Of a stretch of 64,000 nucleotides of DNA, positions 45 through 8,115 are shown in pieces. Each line of letters opens with the position of its first letter. Position 1 is the stretch's first letter. The DNA is taken from contig NZ_JACHIB010000002.1 in NCBI RefSeq assembly GCF_014203015.1, positions 1-64,000 of the forward strand, in the 5' to 3' direction. This DNA is from Castellaniella defragrans (GTDB taxonomy: Bacteria > Pseudomonadota > Gammaproteobacteria > Burkholderiales > Burkholderiaceae_B). Under the pieces are notes generated by a model. The model ran no database searches. It saw only the letters and a program-made list of their open reading frames with translations, and was not told the DNA's origin. The position numbers and the translations under genes are program-made.

Positions 45-143
45 GGGGTCAGTTCTCCATGTCGCCAGGGGGTCAGTTTGTCATGTCGCCTGACAACGCA
101 TTCGGGCGCTTGTGCCACGCCATCGGGCGGCTGCGCCACGCTT
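45..143. repeat. Two pairs of short tandem direct repeats downstream of repC
   Basis: A 22-bp unit at 45-66 recurs at 69-90 with only two or three differences, a 24-bp period. It is followed by a 21-bp unit at 102-122 repeated at 123-143 with 16 of 21 bases the same. The repC stop codon overlaps the last unit by one base. They could be iterons of the replication module, since RSF1010-type initiators bind about 20-bp iterons, or the multiple terminal repeats of an IS21-type insertion sequence lying further left. The sequence alone does not decide. Confidence 0.5.
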
Positions 144-901
144 TAGGGGCTGCACACACCGTTTTTCTTGATGCGATCGCCGTCAAGCATAAGCCCAATT
201 TGCCGTAATTCTTCTGCCTCGTCCTTCAGCCTTCGCCGCGCATCGCGCATGGCTTGGCTTGATGCTTGCCCGGCTACTGCCACAATGACGGTATCGAGGA
301 ACCATCCTCCTGTCGGCTCTATTTTGTGGCTCAAGACGTGCCTTGCGACGGCCTGGCTGATTCCATGCTGCAAGCGAGCAATGGGGGCAGGGTCATAGTA
401 CAAGCTCAAGTCATGTTCGAGCAGCGTTACAAGCGCAACTCCAAGGCGTACCTTCCACAAATTCCGCTCCCCACCCGTCAGAGGATCAGGGCGTGTCATG
501 GGAGAAGGGATAACGTGGTCAATCAATCCGCCGATGATTAAGCGGTCGAACTGGGGCATCTCGATTGTGATCGTCGCGGCTCTTAGCTCAGTCAACAGCT
601 TTTCGATCTGAGTAAAGCTGTACCGGCTATCGGAAAGCGTTTTTCGCACGCGTGCCGGGTCTACCAGCAGCTCGACACCACCATCAGAAACATCGCGCCG
701 ACGTTCGGCGCAGTACAAAACCGCCTCGACAATATCGGCGTGCCGCTGACCTAACCTGCCGGTCACGCGACAGCGACCAAAGGAGGTTTCCATCCAGTCG
801 CCTTCGCGCAAGCGCGGTCGCTGGCTAGGTTGATAGAGCATTACTCGCGCCTGCGCGCTGGTACTGGTGGGTGTAACGGCATTACCACAGCTCATCGTCA
901 C
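143..901 (-). CDS. repC: RepC-like plasmid replication initiator
   Basis: A 252-residue protein of unknown detailed activity that resembles the RSF1010 RepC initiator family in size and in its C-terminal half. A helical segment (QAVARHVLSHKI) is followed by GWFLDTVIVAVAG and then a basic DARRRLKDEAEELRQIGL helix, matching the order of the second winged-helix domain of RepC. RepC binds iterons at oriV and opens the origin. The ATG at 901 has a GGGAG ribosome site five bases upstream, lying inside the end of repA; the two genes overlap by 20 bp, so translation is probably coupled as in RSF1010. Direct repeats that could be its target lie just downstream. The assignment rests on remembered similarity plus context. 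Confidence 0.65.
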   Translation of the reverse strand: MTMSCGNAVTPTSTSAQARVMLYQPSQRPRLREGDWMETSFGRCRVTGRLGQRHADIVEAVLYCAERRRDVSDGGVELLVDPARVRKTLSDSRYSFTQIEKLLTELRAATITIEMPQFDRLIIGGLIDHVIPSPMTRPDPLTGGERNLWKVRLGVALVTLLEHDLSLYYDPAPIARLQHGISQAVARHVLSHKIEPTGGWFLDTVIVAVAGQASSQAMRDARRRLKDEAEELRQIGLMLDGDRIKKNGVCSP

Positions 902-1760
902 TCCCGTTTACGACATGCAGGACGTTCTCCTTCTTCACCTCCACCAGTTGCACCGGAACAAGGACGCCGCCATCGTGGCGTTGGTACCATCGCTCGAGTG
1001 CGGTCGCGTCATAGTTCTGCTTGCTGACACCAAACCGGACGAAGAAACCGCGCCGGTCGTTGCCGATGGGGCGTCGGTCATAGTCGCGGTCGCTCAAACG
1101 CTTCGCCTCGTCTTCACTCATCTTGGCGACGAAACCACACCAGCGGGCATTGTCGATTAGAGCGGATGCGCCTCGCGCAGCCTGCTGCTGATCGGTTTGC
1201 CCTTCGCGGGCGCTGCCCTTGCTCACATGGTGTAAGTACAGAACCGATGCGCCGGTGCTGGCCGCGACGTGCTCAAGCGTGGCGACAAGCCTCGCCATGT
1301 CACCGTTGCTGTTCTCGTCCTTGTCGTGAATTCGGCTCAGGGTATCCAGTACGATCAGTCGAGCACCCGCGCAAAATTCAATGACACGGGCAAGGTGCCG
1401 TTCATCCATCACGTTCAAGCGCTTGCCCATGATCGGCTCAAGAGTGAGGTTCTCCGCGATAGCTTCGCGTGCCTGCTGATTCAGGTGCAGGCCTATCGCA
1501 TGAATTCGCCGTACCAACGCGACTTCCGGGTCTTCCCCCGCGAAATAGACCACGCGTCCAGCGCGCTCAGGGGCAATCCCTACCAGGTCCCCACCTGCGA
1601 CTGCGCACGCGATGGACATTGCAGCTTCCAATGCCCAGAAGCTCTTGCCCGTAGCTCCTGGGGCTACTAGCGCTCCCACGGTTCCCGCGAGAAAACCTGG
1701 CCATACAAAGTCCAGTAAAGGCGGCTCGTTGTCGAACGCGGCCCTTAAATCAATGGCCAC
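882..1760 (-). CDS. repA: RepA-like hexameric replicative helicase (RSF1010 type)
   Basis: A 292-residue RecA/DnaB-fold ATPase. Seen: a Walker A motif (APGATGKS, residues about 33-40), a Walker B strand ending LIVLDTLSRIH, the LHHVSKG segment, and the C-terminal block RFGVSKQNY...WYQRHDGGVL, which matches RSF1010/R1162 RepA closely. RepA is the 5'-3' helicase that unwinds the plasmid origin with RepC. The GTG at 1760 is taken as the start because it lies two bases after the alpA stop and gives the normal RepA N terminus; the frame stays open to an ATG at 1823, which would overlap alpA. The partner primase RepB is not in the window. Helicase plus initiator in an integrated island suggests that the excised circle can replicate. 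Confidence 0.88.
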   Translation of the reverse strand: MAIDLRAAFDNEPPLLDFVWPGFLAGTVGALVAPGATGKSFWALEAAMSIACAVAGGDLVGIAPERAGRVVYFAGEDPEVALVRRIHAIGLHLNQQAREAIAENLTLEPIMGKRLNVMDERHLARVIEFCAGARLIVLDTLSRIHDKDENSNGDMARLVATLEHVAASTGASVLYLHHVSKGSAREGQTDQQQAARGASALIDNARWCGFVAKMSEDEAKRLSDRDYDRRPIGNDRRGFFVRFGVSKQNYDATALERWYQRHDGGVLVPVQLVEVKKENVLHVVNGSDDELW

Positions 1761-1762
1761 GA

Positions 1763-1987
1763 TTAAGCCCCCAATCCAGGGCGGCGAGCTTGGATACCCG
1801 AACACTTGCGGGCCTCGATCCATTCCTCAACGTCAGCCAAGTCCCACACGACATTTCGGCTGGTTAGCGCAATGCGGCGCGGGAATTCTCCCCGCTGCTC
1901 CAAGTTGTAAATCGTGCGCTCGCACAGCGGGATCATGGCGAGTAGCTTTTTCTTATTGATGAGCGTTCTGTTTGTCGTTGCTTGCAT
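1763..1987 (-). CDS. alpA: AlpA-family DNA-binding regulator (possible excisionase)
   Basis: A 74-residue protein with one winged helix-turn-helix (KKKLLAMIPLCERTIYNLEQRGEFPRRI...VVWDLADVEEWIEAR) typical of AlpA/MerR-like prophage regulators. Such proteins activate excision or act directly as recombination directionality factors for P4-type integrases. The ATG at 1987 is chosen because GGAGGT lies six bases upstream; an ATG seven codons earlier would put that ribosome site inside the gene. It is the first gene of an alpA-repA-repC operon, with repA beginning two bases after its stop, so replication of the excised form may be expressed together with excision control. Confidence 0.85.
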   Translation of the reverse strand: MQATTNRTLINKKKLLAMIPLCERTIYNLEQRGEFPRRIALTSRNVVWDLADVEEWIEARKCSGIQARRPGLGA

Positions 1988-2072
1988 GCATTGACCTCCA
2001 TCAGGCACCTTCGAATATTTGCCTGATCATGCCTCGCAATGCGGGATTGCATCGACCTAATGATTGGCTAAA
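1988..2072. promoter_or_regulatory. Divergent promoter region between alpA and the unknown island gene
   Basis: An 85-bp spacer separates the leftward alpA-repA-repC operon from the rightward unknown gene. It contains the alpA ribosome site GGAGGT and a small inverted motif (GCAAT/ATTGC around 2036-2051). No convincing -35/-10 pair could be picked by eye. AlpA-type proteins often act at their own divergent region, so this is the natural place to look for an operator. Confidence 0.35.
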
Positions 2073-3074
2073 ATGGTTGACGTGAAAAATGAGTCGACCA
2101 TAACAATTTGGGACGGATGCGATCCCACTGTCTCGGAAGCGATCGGTCAGCTTCAGGATCGCTGGCACCCGTACTCCAAGTATTCGAAGCGCTATCCCAT
2201 CGTTCGGCTGATACAGGAGCTGATCGATCCCGCCGTGGCCGCGTACACCACGACGCTGCCACAACGCTACTTGAGTCACGTCCCTGGCGCAGGAACAGGG
2301 GTGAGCCTCAGCGGAATCATTCGGTTGGTGGGGCTTGACGCGATGGTTCGTGTGCAGCGGCAGTTGCTGCGCCAGTTCGTCAAAACTGCGGACAGACAAT
2401 CCGCTAGGGATCAGCGGTTTGTGGCGACGCTGGAAACGCTGATTGAGCTGGTGGAGGACTGCGCCTGCAAACGGCCAGCAAAGTCCCGAGTGCGCACCAC
2501 ACGTCTGAATGGCGAGCGTCGCCAGGGTTTTTGCCGGTTCTGCGGATCACTTACCGAACTTACTTTGTACGCTGACGGGAGCGACACCCCGAAGGCCAAC
2601 GATCTAGAGGAAGAGCTTCGGCTGAGCAGCCAATACTGCCTGGACCATCGACCCAGATTGCCGAGTGGCGCTTGGAACCCAGCCTACCGGCAAGCGAAGC
2701 GATCAGTCGCACAATTCGATCTCGAATTGGCCAGGCTTAACCGGCAATGCGCAAAGCGGTCCACGCCCCATGCCGCAGCATCCGGTGACCCGCTGGTTGA
2801 CGACTACTTTTTTCACTACATGCTAGGTCAGACCTTACAGCCTGCCGACATAGCTGAGCTGCGCAACCTGGCGCGGCTGATGGTGGACTCCAAGCTGTCA
2901 GACACCAAGAAGAGAATACTGATGCTCCATCGTTGGGGCCTCAATCAGTCGGAAATCGCAGAACAGCTTCTAGGCAAGGGCCAACGGCCACTGACGCGCC
3001 AAGCAGTGTCCAAGGCAATTGCTTCTATCCCCAATAGCTTTCACCTGAAACAGCCGAAGCGCTCTGGGCGGTGA
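2073..3074 (+). CDS. Unrecognised island protein with zinc-finger-like and C-terminal HTH segments
   Basis: About 333 residues; not recognised as a named family. In the middle is a C-x2-C ... C-x2-H arrangement (FCRFCG, then QYCLDH about 57 residues later) that could bind zinc. Near the C terminus a helix-turn-helix-like stretch reads MLHRWGLNQSEIAEQLL followed by TRQAVSKAIASIP, similar to the DNA-recognition helices of sigma-4 or LuxR-type domains. The protein is rich in Arg and Lys. The ATG at 2073 is used; a TTG at 2064 in the same frame is an alternative. Lying between alpA and the oriT region, it could be a regulator or an accessory DNA-binding protein for transfer, but no function can be assigned. 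Confidence 0.7.
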   Translation: MVDVKNESTITIWDGCDPTVSEAIGQLQDRWHPYSKYSKRYPIVRLIQELIDPAVAAYTTTLPQRYLSHVPGAGTGVSLSGIIRLVGLDAMVRVQRQLLRQFVKTADRQSARDQRFVATLETLIELVEDCACKRPAKSRVRTTRLNGERRQGFCRFCGSLTELTLYADGSDTPKANDLEEELRLSSQYCLDHRPRLPSGAWNPAYRQAKRSVAQFDLELARLNRQCAKRSTPHAAASGDPLVDDYFFHYMLGQTLQPADIAELRNLARLMVDSKLSDTKKRILMLHRWGLNQSEIAEQLLGKGQRPLTRQAVSKAIASIPNSFHLKQPKRSGR

Positions 3075-3245
3075 ACACCGCTCGGTAGCCCTTGGGTTCG
3101 CATTGGTGAAAGCGCAGGAAATCTCTGTATTTCTCATGGAAAATTCGAGGGAAATCCGGCGAAATCCAATGAAAACACAAGGATCGTCAATGCACGCCGT
3201 ACGCAGAGCCAATTGCAGAGCTTTACACAGGGATCGATGTGGATT

Positions 3246-3341
3246 TTCCTTGGTGTATCCAACGGCGTCAGCCGGGCAGGATAGGTGAAGTTAGCTAACC
3301 GGCGAGCCGGTTATCTCCCTTCACTATCCCTTATTCGCACC
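3246..3341 (-). other. oriT: oriT closely matching the IncP plasmid RP4/RK2 origin of transfer
   Basis: Read on the minus strand, this stretch contains the RP4 features in order: GCGAATAAGGGA; imperfect arms GGATAGTGAAG and CTTCACCTATCC flanking a central palindrome (TAACCGGCGAGCCGGTTA at 3294-3311); then the TraI nick region CTATCCTGCCCGGCTGACG; then CCGTTGGATACACCAAGG. The nick-side half matches RP4 base for base as far as I can recall, while the loop palindrome is different. By homology the nick falls between 3277 and 3276 on the minus strand. The match continues past 3341 into CACCTGGCGGTGCTCAACGG. The rest of the 398-bp gap (3075-3472) has no gene that can be supported. No relaxase gene is visible, so mobilisation would rely on an IncP-type helper. 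Confidence 0.85.
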
Positions 3342-3472
3342 TGGCGGTGCTCAACGGGAGTCCTGCTCTGCGAGGCGGGTGGAACTTGGCCGTCATGCCG
3401 AGGCTGTCCGCCGAAGGCCATGCCGTTTTTTAGCGGCTAAAATCGCATGAGGCAGGAAAGTGCTCCATGCTC

Positions 3473-4681
3473 TCATTCGTTCCGACCTGGCTTCCTGAGC
3501 GTCCATTCGTCAATCATGTCCGCCCAATCCTGTAGCATCGCCGTCCGCTGCTCGCGGTACTCGGCTTTGTTGTAGACGGCCCTGACGCCTCTCTGCTCGT
3601 GCGCCAGGCACTTCTCGATCCAATCCGTGTTGTAGCCGGCCTCATGCAGCAGCGTGCTGGCCGTACGACGCAAGTCATGCGGTCCAAACTTGGCTAGTGA
3701 TTTCCCCTCCTTCTGCGCCAGTCGGTAAGTCAACGTCAGCACCTGGTTGAGTGTGGCGCTGCTCATGGGTAGGTCCGAGTCATACCGCGACGGAAGCACA
3801 TAGTCCGATCCGCCGGCAAAAGTCTTGAGGGCGATGAAGATGTCCAGCGCCTGCCGGGATAGGAATACCAAGTGCGGATTGCGCCGCTTCATCCGCTCCT
3901 TGGGGATTGTCCAAAGCGCCTCACTGAAATTGATTTCGCTCCAGGTAGCGTTGGTCAACTCGCTTTTGCGCACCATCGTTAGAAGCAACAGCTTGGCGGC
4001 TGCCCGGATGGATGGTGTCGTGCCGATCCGCTCCATGTACTGGTACATCAAGCCGATTTCATCGGGTGTCAACGCACGGTCACGCGGCTCGAATTTGGCG
4101 ATGGTCGTCGGTCGCACCAGTTCTGCCGGGTTCTCCACCTTCTGACCACGCTCAATGGCCCAACGATAAACCTGCAACACGATCTCGCGGGAATGCACCG
4201 CAGTCGCTGGCGCACCTCGCTCGACAATGGCATCGGTTAGTGCCCTCAAATCTTCGTGGGTGATCTCGATCAGCTTCTGATTGCCGAATTTCGGCTTCAA
4301 CTCACGCTCGTACACCGAACGACGCATATCGCGGGTGGAGTCCGCCATCTGATAGCCCCGCAGCCACTTTTCCGCCCAGGCTCCGAACGTCTCAGCGCCC
4401 TTGACACGGGCTTTATCGCGCGCCTTCTCCTTGGCAGGTGACTTGCCGGCTGCGATCAGCTTCTTTGCCTCCCCCAGCCGCTCGCGCGCTTCTGCGAGAG
4501 AGATGCCGCCGAGACCGTAGCGTCCGAAGGTGATCGTCTCCTGCCTGCCGTGAATTGAGTAGTTGTAGCGGAACGAAATCGAACCCGCCGGAGTGACCGC
4601 CACGTAGAGGCCATCACGGTCATTCACCTTGTAGAGCTTGTCCTTTGGCTTGAGGTTGCGCAGCTTGGTATCAGTCAGCAT
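3473..4681 (-). CDS. int: P4-type tyrosine site-specific integrase
   Basis: A 402-residue tyrosine recombinase that inserts and excises the island. The N terminus (MLTDTKLRNLKPKDKLYKVND) is the arm-binding DUF4102 domain, followed by a core-binding domain and a C-terminal catalytic domain in which the Arg (LTMVRKSEL), the HDLRRT box, the His (CLAHEQ) and the Tyr (VYNKAEY) can be picked out. The ATG at 4681 is chosen because it begins the standard DUF4102 N terminus; the open frame reaches 4738 without a better signal. The gene reads away from guaA, whose 3' end lies 309 bp upstream, the usual layout for islands in this site. The upstream spacer holds repeated motifs likely to be arm sites. 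Confidence 0.93.
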   Translation of the reverse strand: MLTDTKLRNLKPKDKLYKVNDRDGLYVAVTPAGSISFRYNYSIHGRQETITFGRYGLGGISLAEARERLGEAKKLIAAGKSPAKEKARDKARVKGAETFGAWAEKWLRGYQMADSTRDMRRSVYERELKPKFGNQKLIEITHEDLRALTDAIVERGAPATAVHSREIVLQVYRWAIERGQKVENPAELVRPTTIAKFEPRDRALTPDEIGLMYQYMERIGTTPSIRAAAKLLLLTMVRKSELTNATWSEINFSEALWTIPKERMKRRNPHLVFLSRQALDIFIALKTFAGGSDYVLPSRYDSDLPMSSATLNQVLTLTYRLAQKEGKSLAKFGPHDLRRTASTLLHEAGYNTDWIEKCLAHEQRGVRAVYNKAEYREQRTAMLQDWADMIDEWTLRKPGRNE

Positions 4682-4706
4682 GGTTCGTGCAATTCTCCAT
4701 GTCAAA

Positions 4707-4856
4707 ATACCATGCTCAGAGACGCCCGCATTTCCCACAAAAAATCTTTATAGATCAATGCGTTATCTAAATTCAATACCATGACAACCCTGTCATAAAC
4801 AGCATGGTATCGAGCGCCAAACATGGCATCAGGTTCAGATAGTACCACCTACCATG
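4707..4856. repeat. Repeated ATACCATG motifs between integrase and guaA (candidate arm sites)
   Basis: The motif ATACCATG occurs directly at 4707-4714 and 4776-4783, inverted (CATGGTAT) at 4803-4810, and in shortened form at 4822-4829 (CATGGCAT) and 4850-4856 (TACCATG). The spacer is AT-rich compared with its surroundings. Arrays of short direct and inverted motifs beside an attachment site usually bind the integrase arm domain or the directionality factor; that role is inferred here. A possible operator role for integrase expression is the main alternative. Confidence 0.45.
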
Positions 4857-4989: not shown

Positions 4990-6585
4990 TCATTCCCACT
5001 CAATCGTAGCCGGCGGCTTGCTCGACACATCGTACGTCACCCGATTGATCCCCCGCACCTCGTTGATGATGCGCGAGGACACCTTCTTCAGCAACGCATA
5101 AGGCAGTTCCGCCCAGTCCGCCGTCATGAAGTCGGTGGTCTGCACGGCGCGCAGGGCCACGACGTAGTCGTAGGTGCGGCCGTCGCCCATCACGCCCACG
5201 GACTTCACCGGCAGGAACACCGTGAAGGCCTGGGACGTCAGGTCGTACCAGGACTTGCCGGATTCGGGCTCGATGGTGTTGCGCAGTTCGGTGATGAAGA
5301 TGTCGTCGGCGCGGCGCAGCAGGTCGGCGTATTCGCGCTTGACCTCGCCCAGGATGCGCACGCCCAGGCCGGGGCCGGGGAACGGGTGGCGGAAGACCAT
5401 TTCGGGCGGCAGGCCCAGGGCCAGGCCCAGGTGGCGGACTTCGTCCTTGAACAGCTCGCGCAGGGGCTCCAGCAGCTTCAGGTTCAGGGTCTCGGGCAGG
5501 CCGCCGACGTTGTGGTGGGACTTGATGGCGACGGCCTTGCCGGTCTTGGAGGCGGCCGATTCGATGACGTCGGGGTAGATGGTGCCCTGGGCCAGCCAGC
5601 GGGCGGACTTGAGCTTGGCCGATTCGGCCTGGAAGACTTCGACGAATTCGCGGCCGATGATCTTGCGCTTGGCCTCGGGATCGGCGACGCCGGCCAGCTT
5701 GCCCATGAACTGTTCGCCGGCATCGACGTGGATGACGCGGATGCCCAGGTGCCGCGCCATGGTGTCCATGACCTGCCTGGCTTCGTTCAGGCGCAGCAGG
5801 CCGTGGTCGACGAAGACGCAGGTGAGCTGGTCGCCGATGGCCTTGTGGATCAGGGCGGCGGCGACGGAGGAATCGACGCCGCCGGACAGGCCCAGGATGA
5901 CTTCGTCGGAACCGACCTGCTCGCGGATGCGGGCGACGGCTTCGGCCACGTAGTCGGGCATGTTCCAGTCGCGCGAGCAGCCGCAGATCTCGGTGACGAA
6001 GCGCTCCAGGATGGCCTGGCCCTGGACGGTGTGGGTGACTTCGGGGTGAAACTGGACGGCGTAGAAACCGCGTTCCTCGTCGGCCATGCCGGCGATCTCG
6101 CACGAAGGCGTGGAAGCCATGCGCTTGAAGCCCGGCGGCAGGGCCGTGACGCGGTCGCCGTGGCTCATCCAGACTTTCAGCATGCCGTGGCCTTCGGCGG
6201 TCTCGAAGTCCTGCAGGCCGGTCAGCAGGCGGGTGTGGCCGTGGGCGCGGACTTCGGCGTAGCCGAATTCACGATGGTCGGAAAATTCGACCTGGCCGCC
6301 CAGCTGCAGCGCCATGGACTGCATGCCGTAGCAGATGCCGAGCACCGGTACGCCGGCCTGGAAGACGGCGGCGGGGACTTTCAGGGATTCCTCGGCGTAG
6401 GCGGAGGCGTGGCTGCCCGACAGGATGATGCCCTTCAGGCCCTGTTCCTGCTGTTCGCGGATGAAGTCGTCGCCCACGTCGCCCGGGTGGATTTCGCAAT
6501 AGACGCCGGTGTCGCGCACGCGGCGGGCGATGAGCTGGGTGACCTGTGAACCGTAGTCCAGGATGAGGATGCGCTGGTGGTGCAT
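4990..6585 (-). CDS. guaA: GMP synthase (glutamine-hydrolysing)
   Basis: A 531-residue enzyme converting XMP, ATP and glutamine to GMP. Seen: an N-terminal class I glutamine amidotransferase with the nucleophile in GICYGMQ (Cys about 85) and the His/Glu pair in FHPEVTH; the PP-loop GLSGGVDSS of the ATP pyrophosphatase domain; and the dimerisation domain ending in the family's conserved [16 protein letters not shown]. The ATG at 6585 gives the expected N terminus [14 protein letters not shown], although the same frame is open for another 1.6 kb upstream. The C terminus is intact despite the adjacent island, as expected when the attachment core regenerates the last codons. Here it is separated from guaB by two other genes. 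Confidence 0.98.
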
Positions 6586-6804: not shown

Positions 6805-8115
6805 ATGGCATCCCGCCCCTCTCGCATTCCCCTGCCCCTGGCCGGACTGCTGGCCCTGGCCGTGGCCATGGGCATCGGCCGTTTCGCATTCACGCCCGTG
6901 CTGCCGATGATGCAGGCCGACCTGGGACTGAGCCTGGCCCAGGGCAGCTGGCTGGCCAGCGCGAACTATCTGGGCTACCTGCTGGGCGCGCTGCTGGTCA
7001 CGCACCTGAGCTGGCCGCCCGCGACCCTGCTGCGGCTCGGCCTGTGGCTGGTGGTGCTGATGACGGCGGCAATGGGGCTGGACAGCCACTGGCTGGGCTG
7101 GCTGGCGTGGCGGCTGCTGGCCGGGGTGGCCAGCGCCTGGGTGCTGATCGGCACGTCCGCCCTGTGCATCGCGCGCCTGAACGCCACGGGACAGACGGAA
7201 CGCAGCGGCGTGGTGTTCGCGGGCGTGGGCTGCGGCATCGCGTTCGCCGGACTGGCCTGCATGGGCCTGACCCTGGCGGGGACGACGGCCTCGCAGGCCT
7301 GGCTCTGGCTGGCGGCGGCGGCGCTGGGCGGCCTGATGGGCGCGTCGATGCTGTGGCGGACGGTGGACGCCGCCGCGCCGCCCCCGCCCGCGACGACCGC
7401 GTCGGACCCAGCCGCGACGAGCGCGCCGGACCCAGCCGCGGCGCGCGCGGCGGCTTCCGGCGAGCCGCCTTCGGGCAGGCCGCTGGCCGCCCCGACGGCC
7501 GCCGCCCGGCAGGCCGGCGATGCTTCGGCCCACGCCGCCCCGCCCCTGCACTGGGGCCTGATCCTGTGCTACGGGGTCTACGGCTTCGGCTACATCCTGC
7601 CGGCCACGTTCCTGCCGGCCCAGGCACGGCTGCTGGTGCCGGACCCCTGGCTGTTCAGCCTGGCCTGGCCGGTTTTCGGCCTGGCGGGCGCGGTGTCCAC
7701 GGTGATGGCCAGCCGCCTGGCGCGCCGCTGCACCCGGCCGCAGATCTGGGCCGGCGCCCAGGTGGTGATGGCGGTGGGCGTGCTGCTGCCCGCGATATGG
7801 CATGCGCTGCCGGCGATCCTGCTGGCGGCCTGCTGCGTGGGCAGCACCTTCATGGTGATCACGATGGTGGGCCTGCAGGAGGCCCAGGCCGCGGTCGGCC
7901 AGGCCGGCGCCAAGCGCCAGATGGCGGCGATGACGGCCTCGTTCGCCCTGGGCCAGCTGATCGGTCCGATCTTCTTCAGCCTGACGCACGCCTGGTTCGG
8001 CGCATCGCTGGAATTCGCCCTGGTGCTGGGCACGCTGGGCCTGTTGGCGGGCGCCGTTCCGATCCTGCGGCTGCGACGCCCGGCTTCGGCCGGGCAGCCC
8101 CGGGAACAGCGGTAA
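6805..8115 (+). CDS. YbfB/YjiJ-family MFS transporter
   Basis: A 436-residue membrane protein with about twelve hydrophobic segments. The N terminus ([23 protein letters not shown] followed by [17 protein letters not shown]) is characteristic of the YbfB/YjiJ group of the major facilitator superfamily, whose substrates are unknown. A long low-complexity Ala/Pro-rich cytoplasmic loop (residues about 192-245) separates the two six-helix halves. It reads opposite to its neighbours, with a GGAG ribosome site upstream of the ATG, and its start is 219 bp from the guaA start, so the two are divergent. It is an insertion in what is usually a guaB-guaA neighbourhood. Export of a small metabolite is likely; the substrate cannot be told. 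Confidence 0.85.

Follow-up and report, generated by a model that had tools for sequence, protein, structure and literature searches.

The stretch of DNA analysed here (the window; 64,000 nucleotides of contig C2 of the Castellaniella defragrans genome, G000) includes part of an integrative island at guaA, and beside the integrase gene of this island lies a segment that resembles the origin of transfer (oriT) of the IncP plasmid RP4. The locus raises the question of what such an oriT does on this island and which helper plasmids it is suited to. An earlier note, made from the sequence of the window alone, had taken the island for an imitator of RP4 that travels in trans with IncP helpers. Our analyses bear out an IncP-type oriT on an island without a relaxase; plain mimicry of RP4 is not supported, because the TraJ-site palindrome of this oriT is of the beta/delta class. 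A feature that lies beyond the view of the window comes from contig C13 (locus L005), which adds to the same island another oriT, inverted and of the RP4 class.

The integrase-side oriT and its island

A blastn search with window positions 3100–3500 identified matches in 387 of 72,556 plasmid records, and all 20 of the matches listed (of the 387), pBS228 and pRP4 among them, span query bases 127–280 with 87.7% identity. In the window the RP4-type match occupies 3226–3379 (87.7% over 154 bp, E 4e-45), and its core is the interval 3246–3350, in which the parts of an IncP oriT had been recognised in their right minus-strand order. Chance similarity is ruled out by this E-value and by a reversed control pattern, which gave 0 matches in every row of the pattern search. 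The oriT (3226–3380, minus strand) consists, in minus-strand order, of a distal TraJ arm, the loop palindrome TAACCGGC-GA-GCCGGTTA in the TraJ-site region (3296–3313), a proximal arm, the nick region and the conserved CCGTTGGATACACCAAGG (3248–3265, minus strand), which by alignment with RP4 lies on the leading side of the nick. The predicted nick, 5'-CTATCCTG/CCCGG-3', is identical to RP4 in the alignment and presumably falls between 3276 and 3277 (minus strand), where we place it by analogy with RP4; the TraJ arms are likewise placed on what we take to be their arrangement in that plasmid.

The different parts of this oriT have different relatives. The conserved flanks and nick region of the RP4 (IncP-1 alpha) oriT are present (left flank and nick 59/64, 92%; right flank 48/50, 96%) and both TraJ arms are retained, whereas the alpha-type TraJ-site palindrome is absent, the loop and TraJ region being identical to RP4 at 26/38 positions (68%) but to pUO1 at 35/38 (92%) and to pAKD4 at 36/39 (92%). 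We take pUO1 to be an IncP-1 beta plasmid and pAKD4 an IncP-1 delta plasmid. With the loop region alone as query, pAKD4 is the top match (94.4%), followed by pUO1-like plasmids (89.3%), and RP4-type plasmids stand lower (84.6%) among the best 60 of 275 records. A plasmid of Mycobacteroides abscessus subsp. bolletii F1725, which matches the loop at 89.3%, is probably the IncP-1 beta plasmid named in the title of PMC3614916. Since the loop region is beta/delta-like and the flanks are RP4-like, the palindrome has been swapped for one of another class and not eroded. The earlier statement of a replacement confined to the loop palindrome is thus upheld, and the identity of 92% in the nick region lies above the limit of about 70% that had been set for the comparison with RP4. 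We refer below to RP4-type palindromes as class A and to beta/delta-type palindromes, such as that of the window, as class B. These loops are true palindromes, as 391 of 497 opposed positions (79%) pair in 57 distinct loops; in 200 letter shuffles scored alike the share averaged 62% and did not exceed 65%.

As is characteristic of guaA islands of the GIsul2 type, a tyrosine integrase adjoins the 3' end of guaA and the att cores stand in direct repeat. The integrase (3473–4738, minus strand) is 92% identical to that of GIsul2 over residues 20–413. The attL core GAGTGGGAATGA (4990–5001, minus strand) lies at the 3' end of guaA, and its partner GAGTGGGAGTGA on C13 (11592–11603 of L005), which differs by one base, was spotted by eye, a search allowing up to 4 mismatches over 18 bases having missed it. 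On the other side of the oriT lie ORF336 (2064–3074, plus strand; 336 aa), an AlpA-type regulator (1763–2008, minus strand; PF05930), a RepA helicase family protein (882–1823, minus strand; AAA_25; 47% identical to GIsul2 RepA) and ORF252 (143–901, minus strand; 252 aa), which sits in the position of GIsul2 repC. ORF336 has no family match in Pfam, NCBIfam or PADLOC and recurs in 7 other fetched guaA islands (40–79% identical). ORF252 matches no family, and its blastp comparison with GIsul2 RepC gives nothing usable (best E 0.25); it is 68–88% identical to the ORFs at the same place in four loci (G058, ATCC 43896, G025 and G496) and is possibly a different replication protein. The replication genes had been described as RSF1010-type, and the RepA helicase is indeed recognisable as such; the gene in the place of repC is unrelated, which leaves RepA as the one basis of this description. 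For the same reason we file the island as a relative of GIsul2 and not as GIsul2 itself.

Palindrome class and the N-terminal strand of TraJ

In the 20 pairs of oriT and neighbouring traJ first compared (the pA81 oriT being read from the sequence), class A goes with a TraJ whose N-terminal strand reads IKVYC and class B with one that reads H(L/I)RVPV. This rule was fixed as a prediction and then tried on newly fetched pairs. Among TraJ loci from genome contigs (the best 80 of 302), all 68 scorable pairs agree, and the other 12 have a class A strand with no neighbouring oriT found; the plasmid TraJ loci (12 of 60 listed rows, from 428 records) contribute 11 agreements and one third type that was left unscored. 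In all 99 pairs scored, the class of the oriT therefore matches the strand of the neighbouring TraJ (KVYC or RVPV). These pairs represent 77 distinct TraJ proteins and are not independent, since several of the contig loci come from the same genomes as the first set. In Shewanella khirikhana plasmid pSTH1 (L192), a third strand, RITVYC, is accompanied by a third loop, ACATGTAC, and together they are a possible further specificity class.

A later test that started from the oriT found a TraJ in 19 of 32 stretches and none in 13. The 19 pairs comprise 11 of class B with a class B strand, one of class A with a class A strand, 5 of class A with the variant KVWC and 2 of class A with HLRAPV. The last two (L208 and L209, from G1116 and G1099), in which a class B-like TraJ stands beside a class A oriT, are 99.9% identical stretches and are counted as one, so that the tally is 12 strict agreements, 5 of the KVWC variant and one true exception.

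The segregation is concentrated in a few residues. Positions 14, 16, 18 and 19 (RP4 numbering) fully separate the 59 class A from the 18 class B proteins, position 13 does so almost and positions 11, 12 and 24 in part, and no other column of the 77 proteins comes close. TraJ is a NikA-like protein by its Pfam match, and the fully segregating residues fall within the N-terminal part of this NikA-like protein. NikA is a ribbon-helix-helix (RHH) protein whose N-terminal strand reads DNA. We infer from these results that the N-terminal strand of TraJ discriminates between the oriT classes.

This correspondence could also be due to linkage only, the palindrome and the TraJ N-terminus having been swapped jointly while either TraJ is able to use either oriT. 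The two adjoin (150 bp from oriT to traJ in the case measured), so that class switches could be single recombination events, and some of the correspondence is accounted for by the two being inherited together; the exception just described points in the same direction. In a tree of the 20 first TraJ proteins based on all columns, each class occupies one side of a branch, and the segregating residues could accordingly reflect shared ancestry. However, in 15 aligned oriTs the bases that separate the palindrome from traJ show no division by class (judged by eye), and the fully segregating residues lie in the N-terminal part of the protein. In a larger tree without the strand columns (77 rows and the 96 columns that follow the strand, with a bootstrap that was still unsettled), at least 12 changes of class occur, of which well-supported branches force 7, and 12 changes are still counted by a quick method after five long rows are dropped. 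The TraJ proteins of L111 and L182 are identical across the 96 columns and belong to opposite classes. The association of strand and class holds in 7 of 7 independent pairs (sign test, p 0.016), and we consider linkage as the whole explanation to be rather doubtful.

The C13 half of the island and its second oriT

The window begins within the end of an insertion sequence (1–95), presumably IS21-like, at which the contig breaks off, with a target duplication TGCGT that leads on to C13 position 96. The contigs of G000 have seven ends of each of the two end types of this insertion sequence, and seven copies of it break the assembly (contigs C1, C2, C5, C11–C14, C16, C19–C22, C28 and C34). Paired by eye, their 5-bp flanks join all 14 ends uniquely (7/7 copies), viz. 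C2 with C13 (TGCGT), C19 with C14 (CTCGA), C12 with C1 (CGAGC), C5 with C20 (CGGGG), C16 with C11 (ATATC), C28 with C34 (ACTGC) and C22 with C21 (AAGGC). The unique TGCGT duplication of C2 and C13 indicates that C13 holds the rest of the island, and by eye repeats of about 21 bases form a series that carries on across the flanks of the two contigs. That C2 and C13 belong to two distinct islands is ruled out because the target duplications pair C2 with C13 alone. The insertion sequence lies amid these iteron-like repeats behind ORF252 (by eye) and may have damaged the replication of this copy of the island.

C13 contains the second oriT (942–1006), which is inverted and has the RP4-type palindrome of class A (loop 37/38 to RP4). 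It lies upstream of a trbJ-trbK-trbL block whose TrbJ and TrbL have Pfam matches, the proteins being identical to those of GIsul2 at 62% (TrbJ), 58% (TrbK) and 69% (TrbL, over the N-terminal part). The rest of C13 supplies a ptaRNA1 toxin gene, a resolvase gene, ParD/ParE-type genes, oloA-oloB and the att core. The cargo at 7857–11419 of L005 encodes OloA and OloB (PADLOC, E 8e-106 and 4e-194), which we take to be proteins of the Olokun anti-phage system. Beyond the right att core lies an integrase fragment of a neighbouring element (L005 11915–12823), a second integrase of the guaA type that is 56% identical to that of the window (302 aa against 421) and is probably what remains of a tandem element.

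Along the island from guaA, and across the inferred junction, the two oriTs are thus opposed in orientation, with ORF336, alpA, repA and ORF252 between them. The same order (guaA, int, oriT, ORF336, alpA, repA, ORF252, oriT, trbJ) is found in G058, a genome of another genus of the same family, with the classes swapped: there the integrase-side oriT is of class A and the trbJ-side oriT of class B. The two oriTs of G058 are 95% and 96% identical to each other in their flanks and 62% in the loop. Its TrbJ is 83% identical to that of G000; a search of G058 gave no TrbK, and TrbL was matched in its last part only.

A pattern search identified the oriT in genomes of the family (25 of 268), the order (9 of 399), the class (5 of 369) and another family (21 of 398); these four sets overlap and amount to 55 distinct pattern-bearing genomes among 1,405 scanned, the pattern being strict and missing variants such as the pA81 oriT. 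Two matches occur in 3 of the 1,405 genomes only (G000, G058 and G694), and a pair of class A and class B is found in two islands only among the 55. Both oriTs of G694 are of class B, and this genome has its own traI and traJ; the two (L081 8020–8083 and L082 7867–7930) are oppositely oriented and lie 16.8 kb apart; a traK adjoins each of them, and traJ and traI adjoin one only. Such oriTs are common: among 5,426 complete E. coli genomes, 239 contain a match, in some cases partial, and of the places concerned 145 are chromosomal and 96 lie on plasmids. A 308 kb plasmid of Azotobacter chroococcum typed as non-mobilizable (L100) carries a class B oriT near a toxin-antitoxin pair, with no traJ or relaxase annotated within the 3 kb shown, and this is perhaps another oriT mimic.

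The island could also be an IncP mimic of a single specificity, in which the trbJ-side oriT alone works and the oriT of the window is a leftover duplicate or a relic of recombination. Of the fetched islands, 16 include guaA in their stretch, and 14 of these have a single match, on the trbJ side (by the strict pattern), and the palindrome of the window oriT is unlike that of RP4. Against this, the window oriT has kept its nick region and both TraJ arms, its right flank agrees with RP4 and its palindrome region with pAKD4 as closely as given above, and an integrase-side copy has also been retained in another genus (G058). We therefore regard a relic as unlikely, and two oriTs that both serve transfer remain the preferred reading.

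A lower probability still is given to another role of the inverted second oriT, such as recombination of the module or regulation by TraJ and TraK. With the inferred junction in place, G000 shares the inverted orientation with G058 and G694, and RP4 has a traJ-type promoter at its oriT; a promoter of this type in the C13 oriT, which lies upstream of trbJ, could drive that gene. The window oriT, however, lies between two convergent genes and so is not placed as their promoter, and the gene order between the oriTs is identical in G000 and G058, which gives no sign of inversion. Inversion of the module was for this reason not kept as a candidate.

The earlier note had seen no relaxase gene, and this is confirmed: a query with RP4 TraI finds no RP4-type TraI in the island, or anywhere in G000 or G058, and matches the control genomes G900, G060, G610 and G025 (in G025 a short fragment only). 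An RP4-type relaxase elsewhere in the genome of the window is thereby ruled out, and the part of the island on C13, in which a relaxase had also been sought, has no MOBP relaxase that matches the oriT. A beta-type TraJ query, run without a control genome, finds nothing in G000, and no IncP helper is seen in its assembly. As this guaA island has an IncP-type oriT and lacks a relaxase, mobilisation in trans is the natural reading. The elements of the C14 and C21 relaxases, which are the sole PF03432 matches in G000 and lie outside the island, are a most improbable natural helper in place of an IncP plasmid, as these relaxases are DUF3363-type proteins and the RP4 TraI query finds nothing in this genome. 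The two relaxases (L101 9031–11499 and L102 8525–10897) perhaps belong to two related ICEs.

Proposed role and comparison with known systems

On the evidence of the two oriTs and their classes, the C2–C13 junction, the missing relaxase, the correspondence of TraJ and oriT and the architecture of G058, all of it read from sequence, we consider it fairly probable that two oriT mimics of different TraJ class broaden the range of IncP helpers open to a relaxase-free guaA island. The window would then contain the integrase-side half of an integrative and mobilizable element that is related to GIsul2 and inserted in guaA; conjugative plasmids of the IncP family are expected to nick this element and export it. 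With the leading-strand direction at both oriTs presumably as in RP4, either of the two would send in first the module that they flank. The palindromes that distinguish them (beta/delta in the window, alpha as in RP4 on C13) stand next to the nick, where TraJ would bind, and as the N-terminal strand of TraJ tracks the class of oriT, the two most likely serve helpers with different TraJ. The direction of transfer, the mobilisation by helpers and a wider helper range as the reason for two oriTs are what we infer from this arrangement. A further step, to which we give even weight for and against, is a two-key system in which helpers of either class would launch the same module, the TraJ strand and the palindrome forming a short code that has been switched repeatedly; by analogy, and with no greater confidence, such a code may have switched in Proteobacteria, across plasmids as well as integrated elements, in a manner like that of staphylococcal plasmids.

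Two features appear to be new, viz. that a single integrated element combines two TraJ classes and that the oriT class corresponds with the TraJ strand. No description of a two-class oriT island or of a TraJ code was found in the titles and abstract openings searched, and the classical papers on IncP oriTs may report part of it. If our reading is correct, sequence alone would predict which plasmids of the IncP family mobilise which relaxase-free islands, and the specificity of the IncP relaxosome would resemble a small switchable code, akin to the staphylococcal case.

The element that carries the two oriTs, a guaA island with no relaxase, is related to GIsul2/Tn6591, a kind already described, which we located on plasmid pIP40a and in an E. 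coli chromosome. The mosaic of two broad-host-range plasmids that the earlier note had seen in it is consequently not new: the relevant part of PMC5704250 describes GIsul2 as relaxase-free, with TrbJ, TrbK, TrbL, RepA and RepC, and already proposes IncP plasmids as its helpers, and an oriT is given for it in a passage of PMC8239412. GIsul2 and this island share the guaA site, the integrase, AlpA, RepA, an IncP-type oriT, the lack of a relaxase, TrbJ, TrbK, TrbL and the ptaRNA1 toxin, at the identities given above. GIsul2 has one oriT, of class B, between repC and trbJ, whereas this island has class B beside int and class A beside trbJ; it also has ORF336 in addition, an unrelated gene in the place of repC, and OloA/OloB cargo instead of sul2 and ars. 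Other IncP-related islands are similar, viz. that of Brucella suis at guaA and, in its TrbJ and TrbL, that of Burkholderia glumae, as far as the section of PMC5704250 on them goes; the B. glumae island is there said to encode its own MobP relaxase, TraJ and TraK, which this island is without, and the MOBP relaxase TraI that is the hallmark of such self-equipped islands was not found in the present element.

Islands of the MGIVflInd1 type likewise have no relaxase and use that of a conjugative element (SXT) at a related oriT; they differ in depending on a MobH relaxase and an F-type mating pore, and no second oriT is reported for them in the section concerned. Two origins of transfer per element, as in this island, are described for ICEclc, R6K and pAD1. 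ICEclc differs in having its own relaxase TraI, and R6K also has its own relaxase; helper mimicry of two classes is not described for the three in the passages concerned. The closest parallel in principle comes from the staphylococcal oriT mimics of the pWBG749 type, for which the pertinent part of PMC8136818 reports that the RHH protein SmpO sets specificity, that the IR2 repeats differ between subtypes and that plasmids with 2–3 mimics mostly hold different subtypes. These carriers resemble this island in having no relaxase and several oriTs, mostly of different subtypes; they are unrelated, non-integrated plasmids and their specificity has been proven experimentally, whereas ours is deduced from comparison of sequences. 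Multiple oriTs have also been named, in a passage of a review (PMC11389934), as a way to widen the range of helpers, which is the role that we propose for the two oriTs of this island.
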